DNA from: an uncultured Bacteroidia bacterium
GTDB taxonomy: Bacteria > Bacteroidota > Bacteroidia > NS11-12g > UBA9320
Assembly (NCBI GenBank): GCA_943789165.1
Contig: CALSTB010000005.1
Location: 527,001-591,000 of the forward strand
Length of the DNA stretch: 64,000 nt
Direction: 5' to 3'
The stretch's first letter is position 1; each line of letters opens with the position of its first letter. The notes beneath the pieces were generated by a model. The model was not told the DNA's origin. It worked only from the letters and a program-made list of their open reading frames with translations, and made no database searches. Below, piece after piece: positions 23,370 through 52,863 of the stretch. The translations under genes and the position numbers were made by a program.

Positions 23370-23535
23370 TTAGGTTGTTGGGTTTGGGTCTTTGGTTATT
23401 TGGTAGTTAGCAGTTTACAGTTGGCGGGTTCGCAGAAATATTTGTCAGTATTTTTCGCAATAATGAATTTGTTCTTACTTATCCGTGATAGTATACAATG
23501 GATGCAATAAACTGTAAACTGACTACTGCTAACTG
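23370..23535. repeat. Inverted short-repeat arrays flanking about 85 bases
   Basis: On the plus strand 23370-23430 reads as 8-base steps such as TCTTTGGT, TATTTGGT, AGTTAGCA, then GTTTACAGTTGGCGG. The far side (about 23508-23540) holds the inverted form, with AAACTGTAAACTGACTACTGCTAACTG (split here: AAACTGTAAACTG then ACTACTGCTAACTG). The arms can pair into a long hairpin through AGTTAGCAGT and AGTTTACAGTT. The interior contains no recognisable gene. Confidence 0.75.
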
Positions 23536-24419: not shown

Positions 24420-25349
24420 TTAGGCATTATCCATTTTATAAGCGTCATAGACTTCTTTTATTCCATGTCTAAGTCCTATCTTAGATTTCCAGCCTTTGGA
24501 TTTCAATAAAGAGCTATCCATCAACTTTCGCGGTGTTCCGTCGGGTTTTGCTGAGTTAAGCTTAAGCTGCCCAGTAAACCCTACTATTTCTTTTATGAGT
24601 AATGCGAGATCTCCAATACTTATCTCATCACCACTACCCACATTTAAAAACTGCCAATCATCATAGTTCTTCATAATAAATACACTGGCATCTGCCAAGT
24701 CATCCACATGCATAAACTCACGCAGCGGTTTTCCGCTGCCCCAAATTTCGACTTCGCCCAGCTCTTCCATCTTAGCTTCATGGAACTTTCTCAATAAGGC
24801 TGGTAAGACATGTGAGTTTTGAAGGTCGTAGTTGTCATTAGGCCCATATAAATTTGTAGGCATCACCGCTGTGAAATTACACCCATATTGACGTGCATAG
24901 TTTTCGACCATCTTAATCCCAGCGATTTTAGCAATGGCGTAGGGTTCGTTTGTTTCCTCCAATGGACCAGTTAATAAGTATTCCTCTTTCATTGGCTGGG
25001 GAGCCATTTTGGGGTAAATACAGGAAGACCCTAGAAACAGCAGTTTTTTAACATCGTGAACATAACTCTGATGAATCACATTGTTTTGAATCATCAAGTT
25101 ATCATACAAAAAGTCCGCGCGATAGATATTGTTTGCCTGTATGCCACCCACTTTGGCTGCTGCTAGGAATACGTATTCAGGTTTTTCTGTTTCGAAAAAA
25201 GCTTCGACTGCTTGCTGGTTACGTAAATCAAGTTCTTTGCTAGACCTTAAAACCAAGTTGTCAAAGCCTTCTTTCTTCAGTTCACGAACGATTGCTGATC
25301 CTACCATGCCGTTGTGACCTGCGACGTATATTTTAGAGGTGGTTTTCAT
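24420..25349 (-). CDS. fcl: GDP-L-fucose synthase
   Basis: 309 residues, normal length. [18 protein letters not shown] is the NADP-binding motif, [18 protein letters not shown] and YAIAKIAG (catalytic Tyr-Lys) are hallmarks of GDP-L-fucose synthase (GDP-4-keto-6-deoxymannose epimerase/reductase). Together with gmd at 25825-26946 it makes GDP-L-fucose from GDP-mannose. The two are usually adjacent, but here a decayed four-helix-bundle element of about 475 bases separates them. The start ATG lies six bases from a heptamer array. Confidence 0.95.
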
Positions 25350-25355
25350 AGGGGC

Positions 25356-25383
25356 GGTTGGCTTTTGGCGGTTAGCGATAGGT
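25356..25383. repeat. Heptamer array, left arm of the decayed S23 element
   Basis: Four consecutive 7-base units on the plus strand: GGTTGGC, TTTTGGC, GGTTAGC, GATAGGT. They are inverted relative to the array at 25780-25814, so the two bracket the S23 pseudogene. Confidence 0.85.
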
Positions 25384-25387
25384 GGTG

Positions 25388-25733
25388 CTTGACGTAATTA
25401 GGCGGTTGTTAAGCGCATTGAGTCTTTTTTGTATGATTTCCAAGTTTACAAAAATTTCTGAGTTGATAAAATATTTTCGGTTCATGGCTATAAGCAATTG
25501 AGTCTCTAATTCGAAACTTGACCCCAATGCGATTTGAACATACCTAGAGAATTCATTATCCGATTTTCTACTACACCGTCAGCAACATTCGAGGGTATTG
25601 ACACTGAACATCGCTGTAATTGTTGACCCAAACCTTACATCTCATTTTTCGGAAACTGATCCACAATATCATACACGTGATTTACCAGTTCGAAGCTTTG
25701 TTGCCGTACTTTCATTTTTCTGAAATTTCTCAT
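25388..25733 (-). pseudogene. Decayed four-helix-bundle (S23 family) gene
   Basis: Translated from ATG at 25733 it gives MRNFRKMKVRQQSFELVNHV, YDIVDQFPKNEM, a TAA stop, then GLGQQLQRCSVSIPSNVA, a clear paralogue of the intact gene at 27011-27361. A one-base loss just after SIPSNVA (GACGGTGT against GAAGGATGT in the intact copy) shifts the frame, and the rest is still recognisable in the shifted frame down to about 25388. It is flanked by inverted heptamer arrays exactly like the intact copy. Confidence 0.92.
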
Positions 25734-25779
25734 GTAAATGCAAATACGGCAAACGACGATTTAATTTATGTAAGGTAGT

Positions 25780-25814
25780 CTCCAACTGCTAAAAGCCAAT
25801 CGCTAACAGCTAAT
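25780..25814. repeat. Heptamer array, right arm of the decayed S23 element
   Basis: Five 7-base units in phase: CTCCAAC, TGCTAAA, AGCCAAT, CGCTAAC, AGCTAAT (NTTRGCN on the minus strand). The array begins 10 bases after the gmd stop codon. About 45 bases lie between it and the start of the S23 pseudogene, and that leader resembles the leader of the intact copy. Confidence 0.88.
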
Positions 25815-25824
25815 TGCCTTATTC

Positions 25825-26980: not shown

Positions 26981-27015
26981 TTTTGGCTGTTGGCTGTTGG
27001 CTGTTAGCTGTTAGC
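26981..27015. repeat. Heptamer array, left arm of the intact S23 element
   Basis: Five units in phase on the plus strand: TTTTGGC, TGTTGGC, TGTTGGC, TGTTAGC, TGTTAGC. The stop codon TAA of the four-helix-bundle gene (27011-27013) lies inside the last unit. The orientation is opposite to that of the array at 27414-27469. Confidence 0.92.
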
Positions 27016-27413: not shown

Positions 27414-27469
27414 AGCTAATAGCCAACCACCAATCGCTAACCGCCAAAGGCTAAACGCCAATCGCCAAA
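27414..27469. repeat. Heptamer array, right arm of the intact S23 element
   Basis: Eight 7-base units in perfect phase on the plus strand: AGCTAAT, AGCCAAC, CACCAAT, CGCTAAC, CGCCAAA, GGCTAAA, CGCCAAT, CGCCAAA. On the minus strand the consensus is NTTRGCN. The array enters the coding region of the Wzz-like gene and supplies its last five codons and its stop. Confidence 0.95.
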
Positions 27470-28533
27470 CGTTCCTCCTGAAGCTTCTCCACCAACCAAT
27501 GTCTTCCAATGAAGAAGGCCATCGACAACAAACCACCCAATATACCGCCAACAATTAAAGCCCTCATCCGTGACTTACCTGTAGGTTGAAAAGGACCCAG
27601 CGGTCTGTCAATTACTTGGAAATAAGGTGTGGCACTGCTCAGTAAAAACTCAGCGCGCTCTTGGTTTTTTATGGCTTCTCCGTACATAATGTACAGCATC
27701 TCGACCTTACGGGCTAATTGTTGCCTAGGAAGTTTATTGGTGCTTAGTATAATGCTCTTTCCTTGGTCTTGGAATCGTGCTAATTGTTGTTCCGCAGCTC
27801 TTAGCTCAACGAAAATGGAGTCTGCTTTGTTACGGACATGCTCATAAGTGGCTTTTTGCTTTTCAATGGTGTTGGATATGTAAAACTCACTTAAAACGTC
27901 ATACAGGCTGTTCGCTAGTGCAATACTGAGTTCAGGTACCGTAGTTTTTCCGACTATTTTTAAAAAGGAGCTTTCATCGTCATAATCAATGCTTACCAAG
28001 CCTTCTACACCATTACTAGGATCACCTTTGAGTTTTTTTGATAAGAGTAAAATTGCGAGTTCCTGCTGAGATGGGTACATTGAGTCTCTACTGACTTGGA
28101 AACGAAATCCGGTCAGATCAATATTTCCATTCTTTGAAGTCAATGGGATTTCCAATATATCCATGAGGTGATTCCCTAGATAATCATATTTCCCATTTAT
28201 TTGGACTCCATAGGTCAAGGCTTTTCCTAAAATCAATCGAGAAGTTGCTAGTTGACTGATTTTCTCATAGTTGTGACCCGCTTTAGATCCACCAAATCCA
28301 AGCTCACCTAGAACCGCACCAATGCCACCCACACCACCACCATCATCTTCATTGATGACAAAGGTTAACGGAGCACTATATTTTTTAGGAGTAAGCCATG
28401 CATTGGTCACCATGATGGCCGACAACAAAAACGCGCCAAGAATAACCCACCATTTGTTTCGCCAAATAACAGACCAATACGTCTTAACCAACTTTAAAAC
28501 TTCAGAAATCTGTAAAGACTTATTTTCTTCCAT
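27451..28533 (-). CDS. Wzz-like chain-length/polysaccharide co-polymerase protein
   Basis: 360 residues. One membrane helix at about 27-48 (WWVILGAFLLSAIMVTNAWL), a long periplasmic coiled-coil region and a second helix at about 330-348 preceded by the proline-rich PLGPFQPTGKSR give the Wzz/GNVR topology. There is no C-terminal tyrosine-kinase domain, so it is not a fused Wzc. It would set chain length or connect with the Wza-like protein encoded just upstream (1-base gap). The last residues LAIGV are encoded by a heptamer array, so the natural C-terminus was probably altered by insertion. Confidence 0.88.
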   Translation of the reverse strand: MEENKSLQISEVLKLVKTYWSVIWRNKWWVILGAFLLSAIMVTNAWLTPKKYSAPLTFVINEDDGGGVGGIGAVLGELGFGGSKAGHNYEKISQLATSRLILGKALTYGVQINGKYDYLGNHLMDILEIPLTSKNGNIDLTGFRFQVSRDSMYPSQQELAILLLSKKLKGDPSNGVEGLVSIDYDDESSFLKIVGKTTVPELSIALANSLYDVLSEFYISNTIEKQKATYEHVRNKADSIFVELRAAEQQLARFQDQGKSIILSTNKLPRQQLARKVEMLYIMYGEAIKNQERAEFLLSSATPYFQVIDRPLGPFQPTGKSRMRALIVGGILGGLLSMAFFIGRHWLVEKLQEERLAIGV

Positions 28534-39232: not shown

Positions 39233-39318
39233 TGTTGGGACGCTTCGCTTTTGGGGCGCTGACGCTGTTGGGTCGTTAGGGCGCTTCGCTTTTGGCGCAT
39301 TAGCGTTTTTGGGTAAAT
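39233..39318. repeat. 8-base degenerate repeat array after the FAD oxidase
   Basis: From just after the stop codon the plus strand reads TTGTTGGG, ACGCTTCG, CTTTTGGG, GCGCTGAC, GCTGTTGG, GTCGTTAG, GGCGCTTC, GCTTTTGG, CGCATTAG, CGTTTTTG. The final part (39291-39318) matches 1344-1371 almost base for base. No gene lies between here and the tRNA-Arg. Confidence 0.78.
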
Positions 39319-49400: not shown

Positions 49401-50210
49401 CGTTCCTATAGACGATTTTATTGGTGTACAAGTAAATCCAGTCCTCCGTCTTTTTCATTTTTCCTTCTCTTCGGAGCGAGCTCCAATCGGAGTAAATAAA
49501 CCGAAACAACACGACGAACACGAGTAAGTTTGAGAGTCAGTTTGAGTTTGAAAATGAGTCTTTCGTACTCAAACTCCAACTGCAACTCACACTGGAATTT
49601 GCTTGAGGTCTCGAGCGGATTGCTCCGCGTTCCGATGGACGATTTTATTGGTGTACAAGTAAATCCAGTCTACCTGTCGGTAGCCTCAGTCTTTTTCATT
49701 TTTCCTTCTCTTCGGAGCGAGCTCCAATCGTTGTAAATAAACCGAAACAACACGACCAACAAGAGTAAGTTTGAGTGTCAGTTTGAGTTTGAGAATGAGT
49801 CTTTCGTACTCACACTCCAACTGCAACTCACACTGGAATTTGAATGAGGTATCGAGCGGATTGCTCCGCGTTCCGATGGACGATTTTATTGGTGTACAAG
49901 TAAATCCAGTCTACCTGTCGGTAGCCTCAGTCTTTTTCATTTTTCCTTCTCTTCGGAGCGAGCTCCAATCGAAGTAAATAAACCAAAACAACACGACCAA
50001 CACGAGTACGTTTGAGTTTAAGTTTGAGAATGAGACTTTCGTACTCACACTCCAACTGCAACTCACACTGGAGTTTGCTTGAGGTCTCGAGCGGATTGCT
50101 CCGCGTTCCGATGGACGATTTTATTGGTGTACAAGTAAATCCAGTCTACCTGTCGGTAGCCTCCGTCTTTTTCATTTTTCCTTCTCTTCGGAGCGAGCTC
50201 CAATCGAAGT
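49401..50210. repeat. Tandem repeat of about 227-241 bases, 3.5 copies, at the 3' side of tRNA-Cys
   Basis: Units start at CGTTCC in 49401, 49628, 49869 and 50104 (spacing 227, 241, 235). Each full unit holds a block ACGATTTTATTGGTGTACAA, a small hairpin CTACCTGTCGGTAG (absent from the first), a GGAGCGAGCTCC palindromic part, a hexamer-based hairpin with GAGTTTGAGTTTGA and CTCAAACTCCAACTG-like arms, and 20 bases identical or nearly so to the 3' end of the tRNA-Cys region (49602-49621, 49843-49862, 50078-50097). Short open frames across the units are products of repetition, not genes. Confidence 0.95.
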
Positions 50211-50246
50211 AAAAACAAAAAATCCCGACCAGTTTGGTCAGGATTT
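50211..50246 (-). terminator. Rho-independent terminator of tRNA-Cys
   Basis: On the minus strand AATCCTGACC-AAACT-GGTCGGGATT is followed by TTTTTTGTTTTT. It lies six bases after the tRNA 3' end. Confidence 0.9.
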
Positions 50247-52381: not shown

Positions 52382-52463
52382 GCCCAGGTGGCGGAATTGG
52401 TAGACGCGTTGGTCTCAAACACCAATGTCTTCGGACGTGCCGGTTCGAGCCCGGCCCTGGGTA
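52382..52463 (+). tRNA. tRNA-Leu (anticodon CAA)
   Basis: 82 bases with a long variable arm. Acceptor GCCCAGG pairs with CCTGGGT (G-T at pair 1), anticodon stem TTGGT/ACCAA with loop CTCAAAC (anticodon CAA), variable arm TGTCTTCGGACG and T-arm GCCGGTTCGAGCCCGGC. No encoded CCA. A tandem repeat begins at its 3' end. Confidence 0.95.
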
Positions 52464-52863
52464 CAATAGCAGAGTGAGTTTGAGTTGGAGTGTGAGTACG
52501 AAAACACTCTTTCTCAAACTCAAACTGAAACTCAAACTAAATCATCAATTATTTTTCAGTTAATGTTTACGTCGTTCGTGGTTTAGCGTATGTCGTACTC
52601 CAAAGGAACTAACTCGTACAATAACAGAGTGAGTTTGAGTTGGAGTGTGAGTACGAAAACACTCATTCTCAAACTCCAACTGAAACTCCAACTGAATCAA
52701 CAATTATTTTTCAGTTAGTGTGTCCGTCTTTAGTTGTTTAGCGTAAGTCATACTCCAAAGGACCTAACTCGTACAATAGCAGAGTGAGTTTGAGTTTGAG
52801 TGTGAGTACGAAAAACACTCTTTCTCAAACTCAAACTGAAACTCAAACTAACAAACACTCAAA
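52461..52863. repeat. 155-base tandem repeat at the 3' end of tRNA-Leu
   Basis: Copies start with GTACAATA at 52461, 52616 and 52771: two of exactly 155 bases and one partial. Each begins with an inverted hexamer array, left arm GAGTTTGAGTTGGAGTGTGA and right arm TCTCAAACTCAAACTGAAAC, joined by GTACGAAA. The first copy starts inside the last bases of the tRNA. The core AGTTGGAGTGTGAGTACGAA is shared with the tRNA-Cys array. Confidence 0.95.

Follow-up and report, generated by a model that had tools for sequence, protein, structure and literature searches.

A decayed S23 cassette between gmd and fcl as a probable member of a class of IVS-like stem-loop cassettes at operon junctions of Bacteroidota

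What kind of element separates gmd from fcl in a polysaccharide operon of an uncultured Bacteroidia bacterium, and how is it related to the similar element on the other side of gmd? The window analysed here is a 64-kb stretch of DNA (G000:C5:527001-591000) from a 3.13-Mb draft genome that is 88% complete. The gaps of its minus-strand polysaccharide operon are mostly short or overlapping, apart from two long ones of 504 nt (between a wzz-like gene and gmd) and 475 nt (between gmd and fcl), and each of these two contains an S23 gene (PF05635) inside inverted arrays of GCYAANN heptamers. The features of this region are the following:

23370..23535, minus strand: possible S23-free remnant in the wzm-wzt gap, with short inverted TTAGCAG/CTGCTAA-type arrays (p = 0.09, alone not significant)
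24420..25349, minus strand: fcl, GDP-L-fucose synthase, downstream neighbour of the decayed cassette (NF047922, slightly below cut-off)
25356..25376, minus strand: downstream arm of the decayed cassette, three inverted heptamers (GCTAACC, GCCAAAA, GCCAACC) and a degenerate fourth, ending about 5 nt ahead of the fcl ATG
25391..25733 (approximate), minus strand: S23 / 23S_rRNA_IVP (four helix bundle protein) pseudogene, with an in-frame TAA, a one-base deletion and its stop codon lost
25781..25815, plus strand: five GCYAANN heptamers (TCCAACT, GCTAAAA, GCCAATC, GCTAACA, GCTAATT), of which one is degenerate, forming the upstream arm of the decayed cassette, which starts a few nt past the gmd stop codon
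25825..26946, minus strand: gmd, GDP-mannose 4,6-dehydratase, between both cassettes (TIGR01472)
26981..27015, minus strand: five heptamers forming the downstream arm of the intact cassette, which overlaps the S23 stop codon
27011..27361, minus strand: intact S23 gene of 116 aa (PF05635, E 2.7e-31; TIGR02436, four helix bundle protein)
27415..27470, plus strand: eight heptamers forming the upstream arm of the intact cassette; the wzz-like gene has its final codons and its stop in the outer end of this arm
27451..28533, minus strand: wzz-like polysaccharide chain-length gene, with its 3' end inside the upstream arm (weak TIGR03007 match)

The preliminary description of this DNA had recognised an S23 pseudogene with a nonsense codon and a one-base deletion between gmd and fcl, and both the profile search and the reading frame bear it out: PF05635, which is the sole domain matched in the intact gene, matches the pseudogene in two fragments, and the translation (MRNFRK...FPKNEM*) runs into the nonsense codon, is shifted by the deletion after SIPSNVA and lacks a stop codon at its end. 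The heptamer arrays reported on both sides, with the downstream one inverted, are likewise real, since a heptamer detector found five arrays in the 64-kb window against 0 to 0.2 in shuffled windows, and the complementarity between upstream and downstream flanks exceeded that of shuffles both for the pseudogene (p ~0.0005) and for the intact copy (p 0.001). In the computed fold of the intact element the two arms pair with each other (z = -2.6). No Rfam family matched between 22 and 28 kb of the window.

The relationship between the two window copies can be read from a congener, G001, which carries an S23 copy downstream of its own gmd. The pseudogene is 87.9% identical to this copy compared with 77.3% to its intact neighbour in the window, and its leader is about 80% identical to that of G001; a one-base deletion is present in the G001 copy as well, and the gene after it is not fcl. 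By these identities the pseudogene is the orthologue of the G001 copy and is therefore old, and a recent hop between the two window copies was rejected since the nearest relative of the pseudogene lies at the same site downstream of gmd. Comparison of the two window copies gave about 77% identity in the coding part and about 61% in the leader, with one heptamer word common to all arms of both, so that the likeness extends beyond coding DNA, in line with the earlier remark that the leaders resemble each other. The element had also been said to split a gene pair that is normally adjacent, and gmd and fcl do lie directly next to each other in G004, G046 and G057. An insertion did therefore split the pair, and the window copies are old paralogues rather than the outcome of a recent duplication. 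The proposal that gene and arrays move or spread as a unit stands in part: the shared architecture and a whole-cassette exchange at another locus (see below) agree with it, whereas recent spreading by the window pair does not hold. The arrays do not behave as one fixed terminal sequence, the word differing from locus to locus. In G002, the gmd-fcl gap (L193, about 1200-1560) contains inverted word arrays without S23 and a partial repeat of the fcl 5' end.

S23 genes were followed through about 180 Bacteroidota genomes. In a first sample of 111 S23 loci, drawn from the own genome, from 57 relatives and from named records, the 300 nt upstream were aligned with the reverse complement of the 300 nt downstream, and the cut was set at the 95th percentile of mismatched locus pairs. 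The inverted flank score lay above this cut in 77 of the 111 loci (69%), with a median of 18.0 compared with 10.3 in mismatched pairs, and direct-orientation flanks surpassed the 95th percentile in only 21%. An independent phylum-wide sample gave 23/30 loci above the cut (77%, p 3e-13), and about 30% of S23 loci show no detectable arms. At sequence level the architecture is consistent: the arms are imperfect inverted arrays of 7-8 nt words that match within a locus and vary between loci (for example AATTTGAAA, GTTTATAAAA, TGACCCTGAC, AGTTGATAG and TTGGCTG), with a best period of 7 in 28 of 71 arms and of 8 in 14 of 71 (about 4.6 each expected from shuffles). Similar arms are found beyond Bacteroidota, in a Planctomycete record (L071) that has the heptamer of the window, oriented alike, and in an Acidobacterium record (L079) with inverted arms. 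GxxExxY (PF13366) genes exceeded the same cut in 52% of 27 cases; such genes (L221-L249) were also seen flanked by inverted word arrays (CACAGAGG, CACGGAGG, CGCAAAGGGCG) whose words recur in gene-free hairpins at paa junctions. S23 genes often come in twos or threes about one gene apart (L111, L112, L126, L128, L156, L317, L323, L327, L331).

S23 genes lie in the sense of co-directional neighbours in 75 v 8 and 38 v 5 cases (two counts), a bias that is strong but not absolute because antisense copies exist (read by eye in G099, G204 and G205). The dN/dS of S23 is mostly 0.02-0.3 in close pairs, a mark of purifying selection, so the protein does have a function.

In another family, where S23 loci occupy orthologous positions across several genera, the two arms of a locus change in concert. 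Among pairs of orthologous loci with protein similarity below 0.9, the complementarity of a locus to its own arm exceeded that across species in 62/78 (p 4e-11), a p value that overstates the evidence because the pairs are not independent and some come from adjacent rather than identical junctions of one operon (those of lowest protein similarity). Single cases nevertheless show the direction plainly: G157.14_78612 and G111.14_222408, for instance, have proteins that are similar at 0.99 and arms that are different and each self-complementary. Arm mismatches show no bias toward G-U in sense RNA (109 v 135), so that pairing in sense RNA deduced from such an asymmetry was rejected and pairing could matter in DNA rather than RNA. 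Sense arms hold 9.9 stop codons per 100 nt compared with 6.1 in antisense arms (shuffles 8.7, p 9e-4); most of this excess is a matter of base composition, and a role of the arms as all-frame stop-codon modules is retained just as an idea.

A view of how such cassettes come and go is offered by the paa operon, in which the junctions before and after pcaF were read in 30 genomes of the same family. Here the same two junctions are found empty (3-39 nt; G122 and G176 with 3 nt, other genomes with 22-39 nt), occupied by a word-arm hairpin free of S23 (for example in G198, G236, G177, G190 and G146; p 0.005 to 0.01) or occupied by an S23 cassette, one end of which lies in the final codons or at the stop of the preceding gene and the other shortly ahead of the next start codon. 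The pcaF of G157 is 96% identical to that of G083, while their S23 genes share 60% identity and their arms are different; conversely, G157 and G176 are 81% identical in S23 and 88% in pcaF. The pcaF of G157 is thus near that of G083 and its S23 near that of G176, which indicates that the cassette and not the operon was exchanged, and by sequence this is an exchange of the whole cassette, gene and both arms, at one junction. Antisense or decaying S23 copies with arms were read by eye at or near pcaF in L358, L378 and L380.

Among known systems, the closest is the intervening sequence (IVS) of 23S rRNA. In Coxiella burnetii, the IVS in helix 45 comprises an S23 ORF, a 28-bp terminal stem and tandem heptamers before the ATG, and RNase III cuts at the first heptamer (PMC4990558). 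The cassettes share with rRNA IVSs an S23/PF05635 ORF in the loop of a stem of terminal inverted repeats, the sense orientation, a sporadic occurrence and an ORF that decays, and with that of Coxiella the tandem heptamers just upstream of the S23 ATG. They differ in that they sit between protein genes of operons and not in helix 9, 25 or 45, that their words vary by locus, that most copies encode an intact protein on which purifying selection acts, and that S23-free and GxxExxY versions occupy the same frame. By its insertion site the cassette is not an rRNA IVS, but it is built like one. The closest solved structure to S23 is 2gsc, described in the title of its paper as five four-helix bundles (a pentamer). 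S23 proteins of the wider set match profiles of Avd, the accessory protein of diversity-generating retroelements (DGRs) (phrog_3206, E 1.3e-10; bAvd, PF22296, E 9e-7, below cut-off), and by homology the S23 protein would be a pentameric four-helix bundle related to Avd. Unlike for Avd, no DGR context was seen around S23, and a search for RVT_1 in the own genome (88% complete) and four congeners (G000-G004) gave no match; dependence on a reverse transcriptase was rejected on this ground. The heptamer repeats of Beggiatoaceae, Cyanobacteria and some Bacteroidetes (TAACTGA and related; PMC4679880) are also intergenic arrays, often upstream of start codons; in contrast to the arms described here they consist of one fixed word, are direct rather than inverted and have no tie to S23.

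Taken on these grounds, the element between gmd and fcl is, on balance, probably a decayed member of a class of IVS-like stem-loop cassettes at gene junctions inside Bacteroidota operons. Since the cassettes have every part of the Coxiella IVS except its site, we infer by analogy that they may work like an IVS within mRNA. The arms would pair in the transcript, and RNase III or a similar nuclease would cut S23 out of the polycistronic mRNA, separating the flanking messages. Slippage of the arrays and template switching between the arms (quasi-palindrome correction) might keep the arms matched, and S23 may bind the word array, possibly with about one heptamer per subunit. Spread would be infrequent. 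Existing sites would for the most part undergo homologous exchange, and now and then a cassette would insert anew between the stop codon of one gene and the start codon of the next.

A rival reading is a DNA transposable element whose arms would be recognised, at the DNA level, as terminal inverted repeats. The S23 cassettes would be autonomous or cargo-bearing, and the S23-free hairpins would be MITE-like derivatives mobilised in trans, whether by S23, by nucleases of the GxxExxY type or by an enzyme of the host. As is known for transposons and MITEs, relatives differ in whether a junction is occupied or empty; in addition, a cassette was swapped whole, hairpins free of S23 lie at these sites too, genomes carry several copies, and two unrelated genes (S23 and GxxExxY) share one frame. 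MITEs and REP/BIME palindromes resemble the cassettes as short intergenic hairpins in many copies, some of them clearly gene-free; the cassettes differ from them in having arms of locus-specific heptad arrays with no conserved terminal sequence, and S23 or GxxExxY in place of a transposase. S23 has no catalytic domain, no target-site duplication is visible at the paa junctions, where the ends lie in repeats, and the strong sense bias, the precision at gene junctions and the vertical inheritance of many loci across genera are poorly accounted for by transposition. In addition, a constant terminal sequence was not found for the cassettes, and words that differ between loci leave no common end. 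We therefore regard a transposable element as unlikely.

Somewhat less likely still are neutral host repeats, with heptad arrays made by intergenic slippage, hairpins made by template switching and S23 genes that merely survive there; indeed, slippage near S23 could have produced the arms as a side effect, with no function of their own. Most GCYAANN arrays of the own genome, many of them one-sided, have no S23 adjoining, and S23-free word hairpins exist, as neutral repeats would predict. Against this, inverted arms separated by more than 300 nt in one intergenic gap are, over 440 kb of the own genome, essentially confined to S23 loci, cold-shock genes used as a control exceeded the cut in 1/26 cases (4%), the arms keep a constant order with respect to S23, and in the upstream arm, read on the S23 strand, there is a strong G>C bias, seen in 65/77 loci (13 v 2 in the phylum-wide sample).

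Repeats without S23 were also seen elsewhere in and around the window. A solo, near-perfect GCCAATC heptamer array lies at 1461-1516, and about 25 GCYAANN arrays occur genome-wide, mostly on contig C5. Three tandem 155-nt hairpins with inverted GAGTTT/AAACTC arms (52461-52851) directly follow an apparent tRNA-Leu gene, a 241-nt tandem repeat in 3.2 copies (49443-50213) has similar inverted GAGTTT-type arms in each, and a 41-nt tandem repeat (39234-39314) contains GCTTCGCTTTTGGCGC, with a motif (AGCGAAGC) that also terminates several heptamer arrays elsewhere in the genome. Copies of a two-ORF insertion sequence (130 + 277 aa) adjoin heptamer arrays at three genomic places, in L049 (18449-19866), L052 (7838-9319) and L058 (9708-11731).

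A local regulatory or toxin-antitoxin-like unit, in which a pentameric S23 would control its own message through the 5' array (compare TRAP on NAG repeats or type III antitoxin repeats), is improbable: a median arm of 37 nt, which would give a ring of five subunits about five heptamers (a length partly set by the score cut-off), purifying selection on S23 and arms co-inherited with the protein would suit it, but the mirror-image downstream arm, the S23-free hairpins and the fast turnover of words beside a 99% identical protein are left unexplained, and PADLOC-DB gave no match to an anti-phage defence family. Word similarity is highest between the closest proteins, which alone have words in common, and over the whole range between genomes it shows no rank correlation with protein similarity (Spearman 0.04).

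Returning to IVS-like cassettes, no description of arrays around S23 outside rRNA was found in open-access full text (subscription papers and preprints being outside that scope). The cassettes could quite plausibly form an undescribed class of operon-junction stem-loops, with arms of locus words that change in concert and a loop that is empty or holds S23 or GxxExxY, widespread in Bacteroidota and present in one Planctomycete and one Acidobacterium record; the rRNA IVS would then be a special case of the class, inserted into rRNA. What 23S rRNA IVSs and the very common 'four helix bundle protein' genes do, and where they come from, has been a question for decades; if S23 genes normally ride heptad-armed cassettes in operons, the IVS question becomes addressable outside rRNA. 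The paa junctions are a natural experiment in this respect, with empty, hairpin, S23 and swapped S23 states, and comparisons of close strains can measure how two separated arms change in concert, which is unusual as an evolutionary behaviour.
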